DNA from: a virus
Strand: one strand, 5' to 3'
Virus record (IMG/VR): IMGVR_UViG_3300042448_002205
Location: 1-32,932 of that record
Length of the DNA: 32,932 nt
This document shows positions 5,095 to 32,932 of this stretch, one piece after another. The notes beneath the pieces are model-generated. The model was not told the origin of the DNA. It was given only the letters and a program-made list of their open reading frames with translations, and did no database searches. Position 1 is the stretch's first letter; each line of letters starts with the position of its first letter. A program made the position numbers and the translations under genes.

Positions 5095-8000
5095 ATGGCT
5101 TCACCTTTTCAAAGATATCAACAGGGAATTCAGCCCGTTACGGGCATGCAGGAGCACGGTGTTAACCTTGCTAACACATACGCTGGAATGGGCGACACGC
5201 TCGCCAAGGGTATTTCTGAATACTACGAGAACTCTGCGAAGTGGGACCAAGCCTCTGCTGAGGCTGACACCCTCGCTGTGGACGTAGCGAATACGCAGAA
5301 ACTCCTGCTTTCGCATCCTGCTTATGCTCCTCTGGCAGAGGGCCTGAATCCCTACATCGAGCAACTCGGCAAGGTCAAGACCTCGTCGTTGCCGAAGGCC
5401 CTTGGTATCCTGAACTCAACCAAGGCGGCGTATCAATCGACGATGCAGAGATTCCCCCTGTTCGAAGCAATTCGAAAGGAGCGTGAGGCTAGTGCGTTCG
5501 GAGAAGGTCTTCCTGAGGCGAACAAACCCCAGACTAGGTCTGTGCCTGTTTCTACCGCACCTAACGACTTGGTGTGGGATTACACAAAGGGGTATGCTGA
5601 AAACTACGGACTTGCCATTCAGTACTACAATACGTTCAAAGCGGCTCATCCTGATGTTAAGATGGTTCCTCAAGACCAATGGATTAACTCTTGGATGAGA
5701 AACCTCCCGACACAGATTGCGAACGACCAGAACGCTCCTCTGCCAGTCAGGAACAAGTCCATCGAAATCATCAACAAGGCTCTTTCCTTGGGAGGAAAAG
5801 ATGCTGATTGGTCTACGCTCCATCCGTTTGCTGAAGGAAACGTGTTCGAGGCTCCTGAATATTATAACCCCAACAGGCCAGTACCTCCGTCCAAGGCTCC
5901 TTCCCTTGTTGCTCCAAGAAAGCCAGCAGAACAAGCGACAAAGCCAGACGGGAAGCCTCAACGTCCAGCGGAAAAGACTCAGGTCGAAAGGCTTCAACAG
6001 AGAGTGGCAGAACTTGGTGAAGAATACAAGTCCCTTCATGAAAGACTTGGAACTGGCTGGTTTGATGTTGTCACAGGAGAAGATGGAAGAATCAGACAGC
6101 GGATGTCTAGCATTCAACAGGCCATAAAGGACTACAACACCCAGATAGAAGGTCTTACTGGAAATCAGCGTCCTGATGCTACGGTCAGACGTCCTCAGCA
6201 AAACAGCGTTCCGACGCCCCCTGCTGGGGTTATCGTGCGTGACGGTGCTAATCCGACACCCCCTGCTCCGTCTCCTGCGGCTGAGGTTGAGAATGAGGTC
6301 GTCGAAGTTCCTCCGCTTCCTCTTCCAGACTATAGCCAGCCTCAGGCTTCTGAGCCTGTACCCGCTCCACTTAGAGCGGCCCCTCAAACAAGTGCTCCAA
6401 GTTATGGCAATCGTAAGGATGGAAGTCAAAAAGGAAAAGGATTCCTTGGAGAGATTAAACTTCCAGATGGAAGCGTTGCTACAGAACTAAGCATTGGTGT
6501 TAATATAAACGGTAAAGAGTTTGAAATCCCAGTTCTTACTCCGTTGCTTACCAAAGAGCAGAGAGAATACATTGCTAACGGCGGCGACCCTCTCAAGCGT
6601 AGAGATATTGTAGATTCTGCCATAAAGCATGCAAAAATCAGAATAGACCGTGGGCTGAGCCCGTTTGAGGGCGATGCGAGAACGCCAGAAGAACTCTACG
6701 GAAAGCCAATATCTGAAACGCCAGCGAAAGGGGTAGAAAATACGGCAGTCGAGACTTCTCCCGTAAACGCCCCTCAATACGACACTAAGCAAGAGGCTCA
6801 GGCTCAAACCCCTGCTCCTGCCCCTGCTCCTGCCCCTGCTCCTGCCCCTCAGAAGGTTGAAGCCCAGCCACAGGCTCCAGCAAGGGTTTCCCCTCCAACC
6901 CCTGCTTATGACACAAAGCCTCAGGCTCAGCCTCAAGCCCAACCTCAGGCTCAGCCTCAGGCTCAGTCTAACGAAAGACAGTTCGAAATCTCCGTAAGCG
7001 GACCTAAGGGAGAGACGGTGTTTGCGACGTATAAGATTACCCCAGACTCAAGAAGGCATAAAGTCGTAAAAGGACAGCAACTATTCAATATAGGCCAGAA
7101 GACGGGCATTAATATAAATGCTATCGCTAAGGCGAACGGATTGCCGCTGAACATAATGCCTAATGAACTCTTCGAGATTTCTGAACAGCGTGGCGGTCTT
7201 GTCATTCCTGAAAGAGTAAAGAAAGAAGACCTCCCCCCTGCCAAGAGAGACAGCAAGAAGTATGTTTCTGAAGGTCTTTCTGGAGGACGCCTGTTTGCTA
7301 TGGCTCCTCCCCTGTTTACGCCAGACATGGGCGAGAAGAAAGAGGAAGCAAAGACGGAAGGCCCTACTAAGGTCAGCGGTGTCAGCGGCTCTGGAAGAAA
7401 GCCAATAACGCCTGTCGGTCAGGTCCAACTTGACCCAGTTCAAGACGAAAAGAATAGAATTGCTTCTGGCATGACCAAGGAAGAATGGGCCAAGGTAAAG
7501 GTGGTCAGAAATCACGTTGCGGCTGAAAACGACAAACTTACGAAAAAGAGCAACGCCTATAACCAGACTGTAGAGTGGCTTACAGAAATGAGAGACAGCG
7601 TGGCAGACGGAAAGTCTGACCTTGTTGACTTCGGTCCTTACGGTCAATGGGAAAGCATTCACCCGACTTTTGCTACAACGGTTCAAGTCGGATTCGATGC
7701 CGCAACCATTCTTTTGTCTGCCTCAAAGATTAAGAATATTCACACGGCTAAGTCTGGAATCGACAAGACAAAGATGGTCGCTGAAAAGGCCAAGGTTGCT
7801 TATGAAGCCGCTATGAAGGCTAGGGCTGAGGCTCTCGCCAAGGCTCCTAAGATGATTACGCAACAAGGTCGTGTCGGAGAAGAACTCGCCAGACGCACCG
7901 CTCAGAGAATTGCGGCTGAAGAGGCCGCTATATTTGAGAAGGCCCTTAAGGAGGCTGGTATTAAGGTTGACGGTGAGGTCAAGGAACTCATCAAGGGAAT

Positions 8001-16068: not shown

Positions 16069-16367
16069 ACGACATGAGCGATATCGCCGAAGAGTTCAAG
16101 AAGACTGGCTGGCTCTTCGCCATACTCGGTGGCCTAGGTATGCTCGCTAGGCTCATACTTACGGACGAGAAGTACAACTCCATCAGATGGGTACGCATGG
16201 TAATCGCTGGCTCCATAGTAGGGGTCATCTGTTACTTCTCTATATACAGGATGGACATAGACCCTTTCTATAAGAGCGTCTTGTCTTGTGTGTCTGGTTC
16301 CTTTGCCCCAGAAATGTTCGAGTGGATGAGGAAAAAAATCTCAGACAAACTGAACCAAAATGGCTGA
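16065..16367 (+). CDS. Holin-like membrane protein (LydA / phage_holin_3 type), 100 aa
   Basis: Starts within the stop of the giant gene (ATGA). The N-terminus is short and charged. Three hydrophobic segments follow: WLFAILGGLGMLARLIL (about 16-32), VRMVIAGSIVGVICYFSIY (about 43-61) and YKSVLSCVSGSFAPEMFEWM (about 69-88), then a basic tail. The pattern 'LLGGLxRLxxxxxxxxxxxWxRxxxxxxxSxxxG' and the final SGxxxPxxxE helix fit the LydA-type holin family. A holin makes timed holes in the inner membrane. No endolysin was identified in this window, so its partner lies elsewhere or is unrecognised. Confidence 0.65.
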   Translation: MNDMSDIAEEFKKTGWLFAILGGLGMLARLILTDEKYNSIRWVRMVIAGSIVGVICYFSIYRMDIDPFYKSVLSCVSGSFAPEMFEWMRKKISDKLNQNG

Positions 16368-17823
16368 CCCTATTCTTCCAGTAACAAGATTTAATGATGG
16401 ATTTATAAAGGATGGCATCGGCTATGACCTGTATACACACCCTGTTTCATCAAACAACTTTAGCAGAGGTAGTGACTTCTACAGGCTTATGGATGTTGAA
16501 CCAGCCCCGCTAATTCCAAACGTACATAATAAACCTTTTTCAGAAAACAATTGGTTAAAGTGGAGACGTAATAATCCTAACCTTAAAGGAACCCTTTCTT
16601 ATGACGAGTACGACACTTGGAGGGTTTTATCACAAGAAGGAGCATCAGTTACGAAAGAGGGATATCTTACAAATCCTGTAAATGACCTTCTGAGAACTGG
16701 ACAAGTTCGTGGCACGGCTGGATTTGGAGGCTCTGCTTATTTTAACGCTGGATTTCCTGCTGAAGAATATCGGTCTACTGCTGTTTTTGACAAACTTGGA
16801 AACCAAGTAGATAACATGGGTAGTTTCGGAATGTATACATCTAGGGCAACTCCATTAACAAAAAACATTTACATTCAGGCTACGCCGCAATTTATGGAAA
16901 GAGCGGCAAGTGGTGCTAATCCTTTGTATGACTCTATATCAAGTAGAGGCTTTATATCTCAAGGCTCTGACTTGTTGACCGACAAAACAAGACAAGGCGA
17001 CCCTTGGAAAATAATCAGGCCAGAAGCACTTAAAGAATGGGAGAAGGCATCTCAAGGCGTTAGTCTAAAGGCAACTCCATTTAACAACGGATATCTTGCT
17101 CTTAATCCAAGTGAAAATCCTTCTTTCATAGATAGGGTAAATCCTTGGAACAGGCAGGGGCTTAGAGTTATGCAAACAAGCACAGCCCCAGTAGCAAATG
17201 GCTCAGAGGTTTATAGGCTTGTTGGAAACGTTCCACAAGAAATACTTGATAGAGATTTCATTCCTGTTGGTAACAGCATGTATAGACCAAGGTATTCTGG
17301 AAATACTATTATCCCAAAGGAAATGAAAGCAGTAACAACCACTATTGGTCCTCTTAATATGAGGACACTTTACGACGGCATAACTCCTTTTACAGAAAGA
17401 ACTATTGGTCAACATCTTAGAAACGCCAAGTGGAACGCAACAAGCCTTTACGTTCAACCTGAAGTTCAGACCGCTATCGCTGGTGCTACAAAGGCTGGAG
17501 GTGCGGCGACGTTCTTGCTTGAGACACCGTCTATAACGGCACGTGAGGATAGAATAAGAAGGTCTAAGTACCCTGCTGATTATACTGGTCCAAGAGATGC
17601 CAGCCTACTTGAGACGGCACAGATGGTAGGCAAGGGCGTGGTTGGCTCTGTTGCTAACTCACTTACAATGGGTATGACTGGCGTCGGCAGTAATGAAAGC
17701 CGTGGAGGACGTGGCCCTGCACGCATGGAAGATACTGGAAACGAGATTACCAGAAGGACTATGGAGAGGGCGAACAGTTGGGTCCCATCCATCAACGACG
17801 ATATCAAAGAACACTCCAAGTAA
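16360..17823 (+). CDS. Late protein with unique N-terminus and shared C-terminal module, 487 aa (paralogue 1)
   Basis: Overlaps the end of the holin gene by 8 nt. I do not recognise residues 1-375; they are soluble, aromatic-rich, and contain segments such as GLRVMQTSTAPVANGSEVYR and DRDFIPVGNSMYRPRY that look like mixed alpha/beta enzyme or toxin-type domains. From about residue 380 to the end the protein is nearly identical to the C-terminus of the next gene: FLLETPSITAREDRIRRSKY, YTGPRDASLLET, VVGSVANSLTMGMTG, RGGRGPARM, then RANSWVPSINDDIKEHSK. One shared C-terminus behind different N-terminal domains suggests a packaging, anchoring or delivery tag on separate cargo domains. This is inference; no catalytic motif is assigned. 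Confidence 0.75.
   Translation: MADPILPVTRFNDGFIKDGIGYDLYTHPVSSNNFSRGSDFYRLMDVEPAPLIPNVHNKPFSENNWLKWRRNNPNLKGTLSYDEYDTWRVLSQEGASVTKEGYLTNPVNDLLRTGQVRGTAGFGGSAYFNAGFPAEEYRSTAVFDKLGNQVDNMGSFGMYTSRATPLTKNIYIQATPQFMERAASGANPLYDSISSRGFISQGSDLLTDKTRQGDPWKIIRPEALKEWEKASQGVSLKATPFNNGYLALNPSENPSFIDRVNPWNRQGLRVMQTSTAPVANGSEVYRLVGNVPQEILDRDFIPVGNSMYRPRYSGNTIIPKEMKAVTTTIGPLNMRTLYDGITPFTERTIGQHLRNAKWNATSLYVQPEVQTAIAGATKAGGAATFLLETPSITAREDRIRRSKYPADYTGPRDASLLETAQMVGKGVVGSVANSLTMGMTGVGSNESRGGRGPARMEDTGNEITRRTMERANSWVPSINDDIKEHSK
17505..17820 (+). repeat. Direct repeat copy 1: shared C-terminal module coding segment
   Basis: About 310 bases encoding the common C-terminus of paralogue 1. The first and last parts are close to identical in DNA with copy 2, for example gagacaccgtctataac and gcgaacagttgggtccc. 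The match is well above that of the surrounding sequence, and the unit sits in the same place at the end of both genes. Confidence 0.85.
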
Positions 17824-17824
17824 C

Positions 17825-18994
17825 ATGGCTGAACAAAACTTTCCACTTTATCATGGTGCTTGGCTATTCAATGCTCCTTATCTTGATGCCTTGTCGGGCA
17901 AGGCTCAACTTATCCCTGCCGAAAACGTAACTAGGACGTTTACAAACGTAGATGATGCCGTTGCTTATACACGGGGAAGCGAGTTCAATAGAAGATTTAA
18001 CCCAACCAATGAAAGATACTTAGGGATAAGGGCTGACTTTCAGGGTCCTGATAGAGACGCTAGGCTTCCTCAGTCTGCAATAAACGCAAACGCAGAGGCA
18101 AAATTAAAGACACTTAGAGTATCGCTTGCAAACGCAACCACAGAGGCGACACGACTCGAAATACAACAGGCAATAAACCAGATAGAAAATCGGGCTTGGT
18201 ACTCAAAAAGGTTTTACACCGATGTTAATGCCGCTACTGCTCCTAGGGATTTAAAATATTACTTTGCTGGCGGATTAAAGAATCAAGGTGTGTTCACAGT
18301 TCCCTCTCCACTTACTGTCGTTGCTGGAAGCGAAGAAGCGGCGATGATTCCATTGGCTCAACACCCTCCTTTTGGAGGTGCTACTACCAATCATAGCCAC
18401 GGACAGGAATGGATTAAGTCTTGGAAGAAGCAGTACAATTTTCCTAGGTTAATTCTTCAGGGTGGTAACGAGGCCAAAGCCGCTTCCTATTTATCTACGA
18501 ATACAGCAAGCGAACTTTTTCCTACTTCAGATACAATAGAAAGATATTCTCGTACTGCTGGAGTAATAGACCCTGATACTCAAACTATTCAATTGCATGG
18601 AAGGACAGGACAGGGTGTAAAAACGGTTGATACGCTAGGACGCTCAGGTCGAATCGCTGGAAAAATAGGAGGCATTGCTTCTTTCTTGTTTGAGACACCG
18701 TCTATAACAGCCCATGAGGACAGGATAAGAAGGTCCAAGTATCCAGAAAACTATACTGGTCCAAGAGACGCCAGCCTACTGGAAACAACAGGGATGTTGG
18801 GTACGGGTGTACTTGGCTCTGTGGCTAACTCAATTACAATGGGCATGGCTGGATTCGGTAGCAACGAAGGACGAGGCGGACGTGGTCCTGCCAGAATGGG
18901 TGACGCTGGAGATGAAGCGTCAAGAAGAATTATGGAACGTGCGAACAGTTGGGTCCCGTCCATCAACGACGACATAAAAGAACACATAAAATGA
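17825..18994 (+). CDS. Late protein with ART-like N-terminus and shared C-terminal module, 389 aa (paralogue 2)
   Basis: The ATG lies one base after the preceding TAA; a longer in-frame opening upstream lies inside paralogue 1 and is rejected. The N-terminus reads FPLYHGAWLF, then TFTNVDDAVAYTRG and YLGIRADFQGP. The LYHG / F(T)xxxxxAxxYxxx / beta-strand order is that of ADP-ribosyltransferase-like domains of phage polyvalent proteins, with H10 as first triad residue. A candidate acidic residue is in the GSEEAAMIP segment around residue 178. Catalytic competence is uncertain. Residues about 280-389 repeat the C-terminal module of paralogue 1. The gene lies between the holin-like gene and a lipoprotein gene, and its stop overlaps the next start (ATGA). 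Confidence 0.75.
   Translation: MAEQNFPLYHGAWLFNAPYLDALSGKAQLIPAENVTRTFTNVDDAVAYTRGSEFNRRFNPTNERYLGIRADFQGPDRDARLPQSAINANAEAKLKTLRVSLANATTEATRLEIQQAINQIENRAWYSKRFYTDVNAATAPRDLKYYFAGGLKNQGVFTVPSPLTVVAGSEEAAMIPLAQHPPFGGATTNHSHGQEWIKSWKKQYNFPRLILQGGNEAKAASYLSTNTASELFPTSDTIERYSRTAGVIDPDTQTIQLHGRTGQGVKTVDTLGRSGRIAGKIGGIASFLFETPSITAHEDRIRRSKYPENYTGPRDASLLETTGMLGTGVLGSVANSITMGMAGFGSNEGRGGRGPARMGDAGDEASRRIMERANSWVPSINDDIKEHIK
18676..18991 (+). repeat. Direct repeat copy 2: shared C-terminal module coding segment
   Basis: The second copy of the module, encoding FLFETPSITAHEDRIRRSKY through NDDIKEHIK. Differences from copy 1 are mostly third-position changes plus a few conservative substitutions, so the duplicated segment seems to be under protein-level selection. 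Two near-identical copies about 1.17 kb apart could recombine and delete or shuffle the intervening N-terminal domain. Confidence 0.85.
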
Positions 18995-28854: not shown

Positions 28855-30078
28855 ATGAAAATCAAAAAACATCAAAAGAATATTACTTCCCTGATTCACA
28901 ATTATGCGAACGGGGTGCAGAAAGAAATGGTAAGCGGGAATGTGAGTTCCATTCCCGACGGCGACGAAACCCGCCTTGTCACGTACTCGACGACGCTGGC
29001 AAAGCGTAAGGTTTTCGACGACGTCAACAGGAACGCCGTCTTCCTGATTAACTCCCGAACCTACTCCGTAAGTTCGACTCGGCACAAGGGGGCCCTCTAC
29101 CGCTCGATTCCCCTTGAAATCCCTTGCCCGACGGAAGCGACACTCGACTGGAAGACCGTGGATGAGTTCATCCAGTACAGGATTAAACAAGGGTATGCCG
29201 TAACGTTCCCGATTGACGGCCCCTTCTTCTCCTTCTCCCACTCCGTCGTCGAAGACGTTGCGAAGCAAATCGGGAAGTTTCTCGAACACATCGGGAACAA
29301 GCGAATCAGGTCCGCAAGCGTTATTGATATCTGGCGGAACTATAAACTCCTGAAAACCGCACAATGGTTTCAGAAAGTTCTCAACCAGCGAGACGGCGAA
29401 GAGAAGCGAGTGAGCAAGGCACTTCGCAACGTCGGGAAGAAGTTCAGAAAGACCGCTCAGGAATATGTCGCACGTGTCGAAGATTACAACGCACGTAAGG
29501 GAGAACTTAGGCAGAAGCGATTAGATGATAGCGTGCAAGCGGTCCGCAGTAAACTCAACCAGTTCGGCGAATCATATCGGGACGCCGTGGACGTTTGCCT
29601 AGAGGAACTCAGGTTCCGACGGGAAGCGTGGAGGCAGGGAGTTATGCCGATGCACCTGACGTCACCGTTCTCCGTGTTCTCTGACGGCTCGAAGAAGGCG
29701 GGGCTGATGTTCCGCAGTTTCTGGGAAGAACTTCAGGACCGAAAGAAGCACACGGCGTTCGACTCCTTCACATCATTCGTCAGGTTTATCGTCGAAGAGG
29801 TTAAAGGGGCCGATGCTCTCGCCGACACGGGAGAGGTTTTGAGGGTAGAGGCCGAAGAGGTTGCGACGTCACGGGGTGCGAGAGTTCCCGAAGGGATTGC
29901 CTCAAGGGTGTTTCGCCGACACGCCGAAGAACTCAGGAAGGACGCCCACAAGTTCGAGCCTCCCGTCGCCGTCGGGCCGTTCCAAATGCGAGAGGTTGCC
30001 GACGGGTTCGTCCTGATAGGTTGTCACCGTATCAACCAAAGGGACCTGTTGAGACTGGCGGAAGAGCGGGGCTGGTAA
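28855..30078 (+). CDS. Large early-type protein of unknown function, 407 aa
   Basis: By far the largest gene of the right-hand early region, and I do not recognise it. The N-terminus is basic (MKIKKHQKNITSLIHNYANG). The middle (about 180-260) is a long charged helix with coiled-coil tendency (KALRNVGKKFRKTAQEYVAR, then ARKGELRQKRLDDSVQAV). The C-terminus is a separate small module (REVADGFVLIGCHRINQRDL, then LRLAEERGW). Composition and a 'CHRINQ' segment do not identify a catalytic site. It has its own promoter with a 17-base spacer and a strong terminator immediately after it, so it is a monocistronic unit just ahead of the repetitive array. It may be a host-takeover protein. Confidence 0.7.
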   Translation: MKIKKHQKNITSLIHNYANGVQKEMVSGNVSSIPDGDETRLVTYSTTLAKRKVFDDVNRNAVFLINSRTYSVSSTRHKGALYRSIPLEIPCPTEATLDWKTVDEFIQYRIKQGYAVTFPIDGPFFSFSHSVVEDVAKQIGKFLEHIGNKRIRSASVIDIWRNYKLLKTAQWFQKVLNQRDGEEKRVSKALRNVGKKFRKTAQEYVARVEDYNARKGELRQKRLDDSVQAVRSKLNQFGESYRDAVDVCLEELRFRREAWRQGVMPMHLTSPFSVFSDGSKKAGLMFRSFWEELQDRKKHTAFDSFTSFVRFIVEEVKGADALADTGEVLRVEAEEVATSRGARVPEGIASRVFRRHAEELRKDAHKFEPPVAVGPFQMREVADGFVLIGCHRINQRDLLRLAEERGW

Positions 30079-30085
30079 GCAAAGC

Positions 30086-30117
30086 GAAGGGGGCCGAAAG
30101 GCTCCCTTCTTTTTTTG
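30086..30117 (+). terminator. Terminator after the 407-aa gene
   Basis: A 10-pair stem (gaagggggcc / ggctcccttc, one G-T pair) with a GAAA tetraloop, then tctttttttg. It is a textbook intrinsic terminator and separates the early operon from array unit A. Confidence 0.9.
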
Positions 30118-30126
30118 CCTTACGTG

Positions 30127-30155
30127 TTGACGGCCTCCCTAATGTGTTACACGTT
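30127..30155 (+). promoter_or_regulatory. Promoter of array unit A
   Basis: TTGACG (30127-30132), a 17-base spacer and CACGTT (30150-30155). The GTG is 6 bases after the -10, the same distance as in the other five units. Confidence 0.6.
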
Positions 30156-30158
30156 CAA

Positions 30159-30234
30159 CCCGTGGACACTAACCACCACGGGGAATCCTCCGACGCTGTC
30201 TCCCCCAGCGTCACCGCCCGAAGCGGTTCTTCGG
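30159..30234 (+). ncRNA. Array element A: 5' three-hairpin RNA element
   Basis: H1 pairs CCCGTGG (30159-30165) with CCACGGG (30176-30182) and contains the start codon. GGGGA (30180-30184) follows. H2 is GACGCTG/CAGCGTC (30192-30198, 30206-30212) with loop TCTCCCC. H3 is CCGAAG/CTTCGG (30218-30223, 30229-30234). This is the only unit whose H1 loop is ACACTAACCA rather than AACCTAWCAA. The loop of H2 is complementary to GGGGA. Confidence 0.7.
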
Positions 30235-30482
30235 AACACGTGCCGTTCTCTGCCAATCCTGCCAGCCCCGCCGAAAAGCGGTTTCTGACGGCCCTCTCTC
30301 GCACCCGTGCGAGAAAGAACGGAATCCTCCACTCCTATAACAAGATTATGGAAAATCTAGAGGAGGCCCGAAAGTTCGCCGAACAAGCGAGTGGGCACAA
30401 CGTCAGCGAATCGGACCGCAAGGTTCTGTTCACCCTTGCGACGAAGGCCCTGAAGGGTTTCCGACTTAAGACGCCGAAATAA
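30162..30482 (+). CDS. Array unit A protein, 106 aa, leaderless GTG start
   Basis: The first ATG in this frame is far downstream (30346), so the GTG at 30162, at the predicted transcript start, is the sensible start. The N-terminal 25 residues are dictated by the RNA element (VDTNHHGESSDAVSPSV). The rest is a basic helical protein (RFLTALSRTRARKNGILHSY, then NLEEARKFAEQASG, VLFTLATKALKGFRLK). No family is recognised. It has no visible homology to the other units beyond the 5' element. Confidence 0.6.
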   Translation: MDTNHHGESSDAVSPSVTARSGSSEHVPFSANPASPAEKRFLTALSRTRARKNGILHSYNKIMENLEEARKFAEQASGHNVSESDRKVLFTLATKALKGFRLKTPK

Positions 30483-30504
30483 TCCAACCGAAAGGTTCCA
30501 CAAC

Positions 30505-30532
30505 GGGCCCCCGCAAGGGGGCTCTTTTTGTT
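30505..30532 (+). terminator. Terminator of array unit A
   Basis: An 8-pair stem GGGCCCCC / GGGGGCTC with loop GCAA (30513-30516), then tttttgttt. The GCAA loop recurs in the next two terminators. Confidence 0.88.
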
Positions 30533-30534
30533 TA

Positions 30535-30563
30535 TTGCGTTCGACGTCGTCGTGTTCCACATT
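30535..30563 (+). promoter_or_regulatory. Promoter of array unit B
   Basis: TTGCGT (30535-30540), a 17-base spacer and CACATT (30558-30563). The GTG at 30570 is 6 bases after the -10. The -35 starts only about 6 bases after the previous T-tract. Confidence 0.6.
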
Positions 30564-30568
30564 GTGAG

Positions 30569-30643
30569 CGTGGAACCTATCAACCACGGGGAAAAAAACG
30601 ACGCTGTCTCCCCCAGCGTCAACCAGCCGACGGTCTTGTCGGC
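30569..30643 (+). ncRNA. Array element B: 5' three-hairpin RNA element
   Basis: H1 is CGTGG/CCACG (30569-30573, 30584-30588) with loop AACCTATCAA. GGGGA is at 30588-30592. H2 is GACGCTG/CAGCGTC (30600-30606, 30614-30620) with loop TCTCCCC. H3 is GCCGAC/GTCGGC (30626-30631, 30638-30643) with loop GGTCTT. Confidence 0.75.
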
Positions 30644-31109
30644 GAGTTTCAAAACCTCCCTCTTCGTCGCTGGGATTTTGAACGGGGCCCTAGAAACTGG
30701 ACTCAACCCGAATTGGTTTCAGTTAAAGCACAAGCGAAGTCACGACGGCTTTCTCGACGCCGCTTTTGCCGAAGGCGGGCTCGACACTCCCAGCGGGAAA
30801 CCCGCACGGGAAGACTGGAGCCTGACGGTGCGGATGAATGCAAACGACGAAGACGACGACGCAGATTCACCGTACAAGCGAATCACCGCCAAGTCAGCCG
30901 TCGCCGTTTGGAAGCGATACGCTTACGGGAAGCGAGAAATGACGGCCCACGCCCGTGCCCGATTCGTCAAACTCTTATGCGTCGTCGAACTGCACGCCCG
31001 TGGACTGCACGACGATGCCGACGAAATCCTGAGTACGTTCGACTTCGACGGTGTGGATTATGACTGCTTCCTTCAGGTTGCGACGTGCGGAGACGTCATC
31101 TACGGATGA
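30570..31109 (+). CDS. Array unit B protein, 179 aa, leaderless GTG start
   Basis: The GTG at 30570 is at the predicted +1; an in-frame GTG two codons earlier (30564) exists but not in most other units. Residues 1-25 are the element-encoded VEPINHGEKNDAVSPSVNQP. The rest is an alpha-helical protein with an acidic patch (NANDEDDDADSPYKR) and helices AVAVWKRYAYGKREMTAHAR then VKLLCVVELHARGLHDDADE. No family is recognised. Likely an early phage accessory protein. Confidence 0.65.
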   Translation: MEPINHGEKNDAVSPSVNQPTVLSASFKTSLFVAGILNGALETGLNPNWFQLKHKRSHDGFLDAAFAEGGLDTPSGKPAREDWSLTVRMNANDEDDDADSPYKRITAKSAVAVWKRYAYGKREMTAHARARFVKLLCVVELHARGLHDDADEILSTFDFDGVDYDCFLQVATCGDVIYG

Positions 31110-31115
31110 CACGAC

Positions 31116-31144
31116 GGGGCCCCGCAAGGGGCCCCTTTTTGTTT
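31116..31144 (+). terminator. Terminator of array unit B
   Basis: A perfect 8-pair stem GGGGCCCC/GGGGCCCC (31116-31123, 31128-31135) with loop GCAA, then tttttgttt. Confidence 0.9.
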
Positions 31145-31145
31145 C

Positions 31146-31174
31146 TTGTGTTTGTCCTGTAGGCCGTGCAGATT
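31146..31174 (+). promoter_or_regulatory. Promoter of array unit C
   Basis: TTGTGT (31146-31151), a 17-base spacer and CAGATT (31169-31174). The GTG at 31181 is 6 bases further. Confidence 0.55.
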
Positions 31175-31179
31175 GTGAG

Positions 31180-31255
31180 CGTGGAACCTATCAACCACGG
31201 GGAAAACAACGGTGAGCGTCTCCCCCGCTCCCAATCCGCCGACGATATCTTCGGC
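31180..31255 (+). ncRNA. Array element C: 5' three-hairpin RNA element
   Basis: H1 is CGTGG/CCACG (31180-31184, 31195-31199). GGGGA is at 31199-31203. H2 is GAGCG/CGCTC (31214-31218, 31226-31230) with the invariant loop TCTCCCC. H3 is GCCGA/TCGGC (31238-31242, 31251-31255). Both arms of H2 differ from units A and B, but pairing is kept. Confidence 0.75.
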
Positions 31256-31588
31256 ACTAACTTCGTCGGCTTGTGCGAGTTCCCTAAAAACGAACTCCAC
31301 CAGCGAGACACGATTCTACTCCAGATTCGGAACATCGGCTGGTACGTTGAGGATGAGGACGGCGTTCGAATCGAGCCCGACGGCACGCACTTGTTTCTGA
31401 TTCTCGAAGACACGTTCGAAGAGTTCGCCGACCCGACTGACATCAGCCCCGCCGATACGAAGAACATTGCCGACCGAATCGAGCGGTTCTTGTCCGACAA
31501 GTTCGAGCGGGAACTCGCAACGCTCCAGTTCCGAGTCGTGCAACGGAAGAAGAAGAAAGGGACGCCCGACGACGTCAGGCTGAACTAA
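31181..31588 (+). CDS. Array unit C protein, 135 aa, leaderless GTG start
   Basis: Starts VEPINHGENNGERLPRSQSA; the H2 loop is read as L-P-R here instead of V-S-P as in units A, B and D, i.e. in a different frame. The remaining residues form an acidic alpha/beta protein (LLQIRNIGWYVEDEDGVRIE, then GTHLFLILEDTFEEFADPTD) with a Lys-rich end (QRKKKKGTPDDVRLN). No family is recognised. Confidence 0.65.
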   Translation: MEPINHGENNGERLPRSQSADDIFGTNFVGLCEFPKNELHQRDTILLQIRNIGWYVEDEDGVRIEPDGTHLFLILEDTFEEFADPTDISPADTKNIADRIERFLSDKFERELATLQFRVVQRKKKKGTPDDVRLN

Positions 31589-31593
31589 CAACT

Positions 31594-31621
31594 GGCCCCC
31601 GCAAGGGGGCCTTTTTTGTTT
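31594..31621 (+). terminator. Terminator of array unit C
   Basis: A 7-pair stem GGCCCCC/GGGGGCC (31594-31600, 31605-31611) with loop GCAA, then ttttttgttt. Confidence 0.9.
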
Positions 31622-31635
31622 CCCGTTTTTGTCGC

Positions 31636-31665
31636 TTGCACGCCCGGCCTTTTGTCGCCTAGTGT
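31636..31665 (+). promoter_or_regulatory. Promoter of array unit D
   Basis: TTGCAC (31636-31641), an 18-base spacer and TAGTGT (31660-31665), the best -10 of the set. The GTG at 31672 is 6 bases on. Confidence 0.6.
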
Positions 31666-31668
31666 TCT

Positions 31669-31745
31669 CCCGTGGAACCTAACAACCACGGGGAAATCCA
31701 GAAGAGCGTCTCCCCCGCTCTCAACCAGCCGACGGTCTTGTCGGC
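31669..31745 (+). ncRNA. Array element D: 5' three-hairpin RNA element
   Basis: H1 is CCCGTGG/CCACGGG (31669-31675, 31686-31692) with loop AACCTAACAA. GGGGA is at 31690-31694. H2 is AGAGCG/CGCTCT (31703-31708, 31716-31721) with loop TCTCCCC. H3 is GCCGAC/GTCGGC (31728-31733, 31740-31745) with loop GGTCTT. Confidence 0.75.
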
Positions 31746-32091
31746 AACCGAAACGCTCCGCCGTTACATCCTCGGCGAGTACAAGGGCAAGTTCCCCAGC
31801 GTCAACTGGAACACCGACGGCAACATCTTCGCCGTCCTCGGAACGCTCAGCAGGGCGTGGAAGCATACGGACCGCAACGTTGCGGACCGCCTCCGAATCC
31901 TCAGCCAGTTCGCAATGGCGGGAGAACTTCCTGAGAGCGTGCCGAACGCTCGAACGCTCAGCGAGAACCTCAGGAAGGAAATGGAAGGATACGACGAACT
32001 CCTCTCCTTCTGCATCGGCCTGAGCGTCGCCGACTACGTCGAAGACGACGAAGAGGACAGCGACGACGACGACGAAGACAGCGACGAATAA
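31672..32091 (+). CDS. Array unit D protein, 139 aa, leaderless GTG start
   Basis: The N-terminus is element-encoded (VEPNNHGEIQKSVSPALNQP). The middle is helical (ETLRRYILGEYKGKFPSVNW, then FAVLGTLSRAWKHTDRNVAD). The C-terminus is a highly acidic tail (EDDEEDSDDDDEDSDE) that could mimic nucleic acid or bind basic proteins, a feature of some phage inhibitors of host DNA-binding proteins. That last point is only a possibility. No family is recognised. Confidence 0.65.
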   Translation: MEPNNHGEIQKSVSPALNQPTVLSATETLRRYILGEYKGKFPSVNWNTDGNIFAVLGTLSRAWKHTDRNVADRLRILSQFAMAGELPESVPNARTLSENLRKEMEGYDELLSFCIGLSVADYVEDDEEDSDDDDEDSDE

Positions 32092-32097
32092 AGCAAC

Positions 32098-32126
32098 GGG
32101 GCCCCAGCGATGGGGCCCTTTTTGTT
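32098..32126 (+). terminator. Terminator of array unit D
   Basis: A 7-pair stem GGGCCCC/GGGGCCC (32099-32105, 32112-32118) with loop AGCGAT, then tttttgttt. Confidence 0.88.
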
Positions 32127-32128
32127 TG

Positions 32129-32157
32129 TTGCGTCGGGCATCGTGTAAGGCTTTTGT
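32129..32157 (+). promoter_or_regulatory. Promoter of array unit E
   Basis: TTGCGT (32129-32134), a 17-base spacer and TTTTGT (32152-32157), a weak -10. The GTG at 32164 is again 6 bases on. Confidence 0.45.
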
Positions 32158-32238
32158 CAGGACGTGGAACCTAACACACCTGAGGGCAATCCCGATTCGA
32201 ACCCCCTCTCGAATCAGTCCGCCGACGACGCTGTCGGC
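32158..32238 (+). ncRNA. Array element E: divergent 5' hairpin element
   Basis: H1 is weak here (CAGG/CCTG, 32158-32161 and 32179-32182, is the only obvious pairing). H2 is GATTCGA/TCGAATC (32194-32200, 32209-32215), a completely different stem, with loop ACCCCCTC. H3 is GCCGAC/GTCGGC (32221-32226, 32233-32238). The upstream G-rich strand is GAGGG (32182-32186), which matches CCCTC in the loop, so the loop-strand complementarity is preserved by a double change. Confidence 0.65.
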
Positions 32239-32610
32239 ATCAACATCAACCGAGGCTTGTGCAACCTCTCGACGTTCCTGCACAAGAATCGCAACTGGGG
32301 CCCGTCGCCTCCCCGCTGGTCTTCGCTGTATGAAATCGAACGGTGCTTCGGCGGACCTGAGGAAGGAGGATGGTGGTATGACTGGCTCACCCCCATCGCT
32401 TGCGTCAGGGAACCGTTCAGTCAGGAGGACCGCAAGGCGATGCTCGAACGCTTCAGGAATGAACACGGGGCAATCTTCGAAGGCGACGAAATCGACGGTA
32501 TCAAAACTCCCGCTTTCTGGTCCGCCTCCCGACGACGTGCGACGCACATCGTACTCGACGACGACGTCCCGTTCTCAGAATCCAGTCATACCGTACCACA
32601 TTACGAATGA
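32164..32610 (+). CDS. Array unit E protein, 148 aa, leaderless GTG start
   Basis: Starts VEPNTPEGNPDSNPLSNQSA. The body is rich in Trp, Gly and Arg (RNWGPSPPRWSSLYEIERCF, then GGPEEGGWWYDWLTPIACVR) with a helical part (EDRKAMLERFRNEHGAIFEG). No family is recognised. The two Trp/Gly segments may form a compact beta or zinc-free fold; no catalytic motif is visible. Confidence 0.65.
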   Translation: MEPNTPEGNPDSNPLSNQSADDAVGININRGLCNLSTFLHKNRNWGPSPPRWSSLYEIERCFGGPEEGGWWYDWLTPIACVREPFSQEDRKAMLERFRNEHGAIFEGDEIDGIKTPAFWSASRRRATHIVLDDDVPFSESSHTVPHYE

Positions 32611-32615
32611 ACTCA

Positions 32616-32642
32616 GGGCCCCAGCGATGGGGCCCTTTTCTT
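32616..32642 (+). terminator. Terminator of array unit E
   Basis: A 7-pair stem GGGCCCC/GGGGCCC (32616-32622, 32629-32635) with loop AGCGAT, the same loop as unit D, then ttttctttt. Confidence 0.85.
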
Positions 32643-32647
32643 TTGCG

Positions 32648-32676
32648 TTGCATCAGGACGCCCGACGTCTCACATT
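32648..32676 (+). promoter_or_regulatory. Promoter of array unit F
   Basis: TTGCAT (32648-32653), a 17-base spacer and CACATT (32671-32676), the same -10 as unit B. The GTG at 32683 is 6 bases on. Confidence 0.6.
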
Positions 32677-32680
32677 CGAG

Positions 32681-32757
32681 CCGTGGAACCTATCAACCAC
32701 GGGGACAATTCTCCCGAACGTCTCCCCCGTTCGAACTCCGCTGAGGAGATTCTCAGC
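32681..32757 (+). ncRNA. Array element F: 5' three-hairpin RNA element
   Basis: H1 is CCGTGG/CCACGG (32681-32686, 32697-32702) with loop AACCTATCAA. GGGGA is at 32701-32705. H2 is CGAACG/CGTTCG (32715-32720, 32728-32733) with loop TCTCCCC. H3 is GCTGAG/CTCAGC (32740-32745, 32752-32757), a stem unlike any other unit, with loop GAGATT. Confidence 0.75.
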
Positions 32758-32932
32758 AACCTCAACAAGACGCTCGAAGCCGTCAGGCTTCGGAAGACGC
32801 ACGTCGGCGACGAAGTCATCGCCCTGCACGACGAAATCGAAGCGATGCCCGTTGCTGACCGTCGCCTCCCGTTCCTTCGCTCCCAGCGGGACGAACTGCG
32901 GAAGGCTTACAGGGCACTCGACGCAATCGAAG
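32683..32932 (+). CDS. Array unit F protein, N-terminal 83 residues (runs off the window)
   Basis: Open from the GTG at 32683 to the window edge. The N-terminus is element-encoded (VEPINHGDNSPERLPRSNSA). A charged helical region follows (NLNKTLEAVRLRKTHVGDEV, then LPFLRSQRDELRKAYRALDA). The array therefore probably continues beyond the window. No family is recognised. Confidence 0.6.
   Translation, partial: MEPINHGDNSPERLPRSNSAEEILSNLNKTLEAVRLRKTHVGDEVIALHDEIEAMPVADRRLPFLRSQRDELRKAYRALDAIE

Follow-up and report, generated by a model that had tools for sequence, protein, structure and literature searches.

Organization of the small-gene array

The window analysed here is a complete IMG/VR viral contig of 32,932 bases (IMGVR_UViG_3300042448_002205) from a freshwater tailed phage, at the right end of which six small genes, A to F, lie in tandem on the plus strand, each beginning with a copy of a 75-base element that we describe as a predicted structured RNA. 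The six copies share one architecture, and their start codons are at 30162, 30570, 31181, 31672, 32164 and 32683. Gene A (30162-30482) codes for 106 amino acids, of which the element accounts for about the first 25 codons, and is followed by genes B (30570-31109; 179 amino acids), C (31181-31588; 135), D (31672-32091; 139) and E (32164-32610; 148). Gene F (32683-32932) is truncated by the contig end but is whole, with 158 codons for amino acids, in the near-identical contig G001. The genes are mutually unrelated, with no protein match to one another within the genome, as a first-pass annotation made from the sequence alone had stated; their functions are unknown.

That annotation had placed six units in this region and proposed a covariance model as a check, and all six are present. 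Model R2, built from 21 copies from the window and its relatives (an R1 model used 7), finds exactly these six, all at full length with E values of 1e-17 to 1e-24, and no further match in the whole window up to E = 10. A 22-base start motif, with up to three mismatches allowed, occurs five times in the window and not at all in 100 shuffles.

An intrinsic-terminator-like hairpin followed by a T run lies 5′ of gene A (30090-30118, plus strand), and terminator-like hairpins lie 5′ of genes B to F at about 30507, 31117, 31595, 32099 and 32617. Because such a hairpin precedes every gene, each looks like a separate transcription unit; the same array is seen in L176.

Predicted fold: a pseudoknotted hairpin and a hairpin

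The predicted fold of the element is one pseudoknotted hairpin followed by one simple hairpin. From the 5′ end it comprises the start codon and 15 further bases, a 5-base strand (S1a, +19 to +23), a linker of 4-8 bases, the 7-base 5′ arm of hairpin H2, 2-3 bases, a 5-base strand (S1b), the 7-base 3′ arm of H2, 4-7 bases, and the 6 pairs of hairpin H3. The H3 loop is either 6 bases long, in most cases GRNNUU, or 5 bases long with the sequence CGNNY. Pairing of S1a with S1b, which lies in the H2 loop and directly abuts the H2 3′ arm, forms a pseudoknot. Of 22 clean copies, 20 have S1a starting at +19, and the first 18 bases are A/C-rich with no conserved pairing. The stems are free to vary in sequence; conservation seems confined to the H3 loop, the start of the first linker and a G/C bias in S1.

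In the window all copies are on the plus strand. Element A (30162-30234) starts with GTG and has S1 at 30180-30184/30201-30205, H2 at 30192-30198/30206-30212 and H3 at 30218-30223/30229-30234. The corresponding stems are at 30588-30592/30609-30613, 30600-30606/30614-30620 and 30626-30631/30638-30643 in element B (30570-30643); at 31199-31203/31221-31225, 31212-31218/31226-31232 and 31238-31243/31250-31255 in element C (31181-31255); and at 31690-31694/31711-31715, 31702-31708/31716-31722 and 31728-31733/31740-31745 in element D (31672-31745). Element E (32164-32238) carries a compensatory S1, GAGGG at 32182-32186 with CCCTC at 32204-32208, followed by H2 at 32194-32200/32209-32215 and H3 at 32221-32226/32233-32238. 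Element F (32683-32757) has S1 at 32701-32705/32723-32727, H2 at 32714-32720/32728-32734 and H3 at 32740-32745/32752-32757.

The first-pass annotation had drawn three hairpins with a G-rich strand between the first and the second. H2 and H3 are matched as it described, and the G-rich strand is present as well; what had been overlooked is that this strand is half of a pseudoknot with the H2 loop, with four of its five pairs covarying. The first hairpin, H1 (GTGG...CCAC around the start codon), did not hold up. Across 22 copies 64.4% of its cells are paired, against 63.3% in shuffled columns; the GTGG..CCAC pairing is present in A, B, C, D and F and absent from E, and no H1 partner is found in L178, in both ATG copies of L246 or in copy q5 of L276. 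In several copies GTG could pair weakly with a CAC, in shifting registers. H3 is itself not clear in two L246 copies (p1 and p7).

Covariation

The pseudoknot, H2 and H3 together comprise 18 pairs, which over 22 copies gives 396 cells. Pairing is found in 93.9% of these, compared with 63.6% after shuffling and 38-48% in slid controls, and 17 of the 18 pairs change on both sides. There are 117 double-change cells against 32 in shuffles, and the covariation score reaches 0.79, compared with a control value of 0.21. S1 alone is 97.3% paired, with 14 double-change cells against 2.6 in shuffles and both-sided changes in four of its five pairs; seven full S1 pairings occur (GGGGA/TCCCC, GGGAG/CTCCC, GGAAG/CTTCC, GAGGG/CCCTC, GCGGG/CCCGC, GGGGG/CCCCC and GCAGA/TCTGC). 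When arms were swapped among copies in 20,000 trials, the observed pairing was matched in none for H2 or H3 and in 7 for S1. Some copies had been found by patterns demanding part of S1, and that of L178 by a descriptor demanding pairing; most copies of L032, the L246 copy at 7254 and copies q3 and q5 of L276 were found through synteny or the start motif, with no pairing demanded. The covariation bears out the earlier proposal of a structured RNA, and we regard a conserved RNA structure as almost certain.

Closely related strains provide further changes of this kind. The window and G001 differ at 9 positions in 21,170 aligned bases (99.96% identity), and six of the nine lie inside element F, near the contig end. 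Among them are two compensatory pairs, 32718/32730 in H2 (A-T to G-C) and 32742/32755 in H3 (T-A to C-G), such that base pairing is preserved in both alleles. Because the G001 allele is identical to that of a further close strain, L003, these differences may reflect a small recombination tract and not fresh mutation. Overall, eight of the nine differences fall in or just after element F (window 32715-32817). Between L276 and L284, H3 of the third copy changes from CGCAAC/GTTGCG to CCCAGC/GCTGGG.

Start codons and promoters

The element opens with a GTG codon, replaced by ATG in two L246 copies, and in all copies this codon is in frame with its gene; the replacement indicates that these are start codons. 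A start codon downstream of H3 was considered and rejected, as no conserved start codon is found there and the +1 GTG or ATG is in frame throughout. S1b occurs in two codon phases (0 and 1) and H3 in each of the three, indicating that it is the fold and not the peptide that is conserved.

A sigma70-like promoter lies upstream of every copy for which upstream sequence is available. With 22 upstream regions aligned on the start codon, T is found at -35 in 21, T at -34 in 16, A at -11 in 17, T at -7 in 22 and C at -1 in 20, and the sigma70-like score has a single peak that puts the -10 box at -12 to -7 (z = 12 against shuffles). This register, which the first-pass annotation had overlooked, together with the usual six-base spacing predicts that transcription begins on the start codon itself. 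The promoters, all on the plus strand, are as follows: gene A, 30127-30161 (-35 TTGACG at 30127-30132, -10 CACGTT at 30150-30155, predicted +1 at 30162); gene B, 30535-30569 (TTGCGT, CACATT at 30558-30563, +1 at 30570); gene C, 31146-31180 (TTGTGT, CAGATT at 31169-31174, +1 at 31181); gene D, 31636-31671 (TTGCAC, TAGTGT at 31660-31665, +1 at 31672); gene E, 32129-32163 (TTGCGT, TTTTGT at 32152-32157, +1 at 32164); and gene F, 32648-32682 (TTGCAT, CACATT at 32671-32676, +1 at 32683). The terminator-like hairpin of the preceding gene is about 40 bases upstream, leaving space for little beyond the promoter. Most other genes of the phage also lack an evident Shine-Dalgarno sequence. A leaderless start of these mRNAs is strongly suggested by the promoter register, and we consider it highly probable. 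The element, earlier called a 5′ RNA element, is predicted to lie within the first 25 codons of leaderless messages, where it is translated, and not in a 5′ untranslated leader.

Copies in other phages

Diverged phages also carry the module, again in arrays of small genes of this kind: L032 (six copies and one degenerate), L178 (one copy and one degenerate), L246 (three copies), L276/L260 (five copies) and L284 (four copies). The L284 copies were discovered with the start-motif pattern after R1 and R2 had been made, and R2 afterwards recovered all four. The total is about 26, including a strain variant in L003. An R1 search of 82 related loci gave 19 matches below E = 0.02, all of them known or syntenic copies; the six remaining matches had E values of 0.6 or more.

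The presence of the element varies between orthologous genes, in keeping with the mobile or shared module that had been proposed. Gene D orthologues in L246 and L276 begin without it, and the gene E orthologue carries it in L276 and lacks it in L246. The N-terminal stretch of about 25 residues occurs only alongside the element, and since the element-less gene D orthologues begin at their own N terminus, the module must have been gained by or lost from pre-existing genes.

Other searches added little. Most matches of a broad pattern scan (CCACGGGGA..TCTCCCC) were due to chance, and one, L032, was a genuine new relative. Two protein searches (A4 and A8) for further arrays returned only known contigs or nothing, and annotated phage records searched with the element or the array held nothing relevant. 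Matches of the covariance model in L219 and L242, with E values near 1, have neither start nor promoter context and were rejected, as was a mycobacteriophage match to gene D (E = 0.04), which is antisense to the annotated gene and due to chance. Among 141 bacterial genomes, from the class of an Opitutae metagenome-assembled genome (MAG) described below, four weak chromosomal matches (per-genome E values of 0.001-0.007) are probably chance: most of H2 or H3 is missing from three, and L281, the best folded, lacks a start codon and is buried in a coding open reading frame of 718 amino acids. The window has no match to any Rfam 15 family at the gathering score, consistent with the earlier remark that the element resembles no known RNA; up to E = 10 there are only weak matches, mostly to terminators or coding sequence, with none meaningful on the elements. 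We found no publication on this element in the literature searched, which excluded most subscription journals.

Arrays of the same kind but without the element are seen in related phages, at L204:5990-7530 and L209:6080-7610, where small genes each end in a terminator-like hairpin and ATG directly follows CCTGTT or CCCGTT.

The window phage and its relatives

The minus strand of the window carries a replication module with Erf, a DnaC-like loader, an O-like initiator, exonuclease VIII and endonuclease VII, and giant tail-region proteins are also encoded. A 300-base direct repeat (17497-17796 and 18668-18967; 77% identity, spacing 1171 bases) sits at or near the ends of the open reading frames at 16360-17823 and 17693-18994, and is possibly a duplicated tail-fibre domain. 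Upstream of the array, 28855-30078 encodes a 407-residue protein of PHROG 7247 (function unknown) with a C-terminal IGCHxI...LAExxGW motif, and a protein of about this size and family precedes the array in three element-bearing phages (w, m and p). G001 (25.5 kb) overlaps the window and continues beyond it to tRNA genes and the terminase. A C-rich stretch without an evident gene separates the array from the tRNA cluster (L176:7770-8420, L032:6430-7080, L246:7790-8280); it has CCAGCC and CCCTGAG repeats, and G runs at its end.

Relatives of the terminase are found in at least 471 stretches among viral contigs; the sole relative in bacterial assemblies is on a contig of the Opitutae MAG, at 34% identity, a weak hint of a Verrucomicrobiota host.

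Discussion

As judged from covariation and context, the element is a new RNA family in an unexpected place. A role in translation initiation or in its control, including the operator considered below, seems likely; the most likely form of this, to which we lean slightly, is control in cis of initiation on leaderless messages. Each copy would form the translated 5′ terminus of a leaderless mRNA carrying a single phage gene, and the first nucleotide transcribed would be that of the start codon, usually GUG. With a start codon in the P site, the toeprint of an initiating ribosome lies near +16. The ribosome would cover the message to about this point and S1a, at +19, would be just beyond its footprint, such that the ribosome could bind the free 5′ end without unfolding the pseudoknot at its leading edge; the free A/C-rich segment would be about as long as the downstream channel of the ribosome, with the pseudoknot following. 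The fold may keep the 5′ end open and position or recruit the ribosome, or it may gate initiation, and the module would be copied from gene to gene as a promoter-proximal unit. CA repeats after the start codon are reported to enhance translation, and stable structure around a leaderless start codon to lower it in some species (PMC9031893); the A/C-rich start and a structure held off the start codon fit both effects.

Several points weigh against this interpretation. The start site is a prediction from promoter register, and other genes in the same arrays have near-leaderless promoters without the element, which is thus not required for leaderless translation. S1a begins at +22 in q3 and at +18 in q5 of L276. 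The pair counts come from an alignment that had been condensed to suit the structure, and copies inside one phage are not independent. Structure near a leaderless start can lower translation (PMC9031893), and the element may therefore repress and not help.

Repression is central to an alternative that we consider unlikely, though more plausible than those that follow, namely that the pseudoknot is an operator. An RNA-binding protein of the phage or host would bind it and repress, or time, translation of the array genes together, in the manner of T4 gp32 at its own pseudoknot. One specific fold, with a conserved H3 loop, recurs at several targets in each genome, which is the pattern of a coordinated operator, and a protein bound 18 bases from the start codon could block the ribosome; however, no candidate regulator was identified, and no RNA-binding domain was found in the upstream protein of about 407 residues. 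An action on transcription, with the nascent 5′ RNA modifying RNA polymerase so that pauses and terminators are ignored, as with HK022 put RNA, would suit an element at +1 to +75 of each transcript and the strong terminator-like hairpins between genes. We regard it as improbable: a unit with its own promoter and terminator does not need read-through, the element-less array genes of L246 have the same terminators, and put RNA consists of two hairpins and is not known to contain such a pseudoknot.

It is similarly doubtful that the element stabilises the mRNA or blocks a 5′-3′ nuclease. A compact pseudoknot close to the 5′ end of short transcription units would be well placed for this, but the 18 free bases before it leave the 5′ end unmasked and each translating ribosome would unfold the element. 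Least credible of all is that conservation acts on an N-terminal peptide (VEPxNxGExxDSVSPxxNQ), such as a tag for targeting or packaging, with RNA pairing secondary. All copies are read in frame, and their N-terminal residues (VE, G) are alike, yet the loop is read in differing codon phases (SVSP, ERLPRS, SNPLS) with pairing kept, and the compensatory changes alter the peptide; the varying phase led us to reject a peptide tag as the main constraint.

Initiation control by a translated pseudoknot has partial parallels in other systems. The T4 gene 32 operator is likewise a pseudoknot near the start of a phage mRNA and controls translation, but it is in the 5′ leader of one gene, upstream of the Shine-Dalgarno sequence, whereas the present element is in the coding region of predicted leaderless mRNAs, occurs in several copies per phage and has its loop strand abutting the H2 3′ arm, with no third loop. 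HK022 put RNA likewise folds at the 5′ end of early phage transcripts; its simple hairpins lie in an untranslated leader, act on RNA polymerase and are not known to recur once per gene, whereas the element here is a pseudoknot with a hairpin and is translated. The start-associated sequences (SAS/ESAS) of cluster K mycobacteriophages are likewise short modules that recur at the start of numerous small phage genes, but are upstream of the start codon and conserved in sequence at the ribosome-binding site; the present element is downstream and conserved as structure. The leaderless mRNAs of mycobacteria, Deinococcus and lambda cI resemble the messages predicted here in their 5′-terminal start codon, the lack of a Shine-Dalgarno sequence and A/C-rich sequence after the start, but no structured cis element for a particular mRNA was known to a 2022 review (PMC9031893), and the present element would be one.

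That review reported only global mechanisms for leaderless mRNAs, with no gene-specific strategies, and noted that a riboswitch for such a message could only sit in coding sequence (PMC9031893). How one leaderless mRNA, and not all, may be controlled is an open question, and the covarying fold described here lies in just that place, the coding sequence. We tentatively propose a new class of cis-regulatory RNA, in which a translated 5′-terminal pseudoknot and the initiating 70S ribosome would together select individual leaderless mRNAs, and which would have passed, as a module, among phage genes that are small and probably early. The element is a portable module of 75 bases, and its roughly 26 copies, with natural compensatory mutants and promoters of predictable start, are ready-made constructs for the study of ribosome recruitment to leaderless mRNAs. 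If confirmed, it would represent a new way to control individual leaderless genes.

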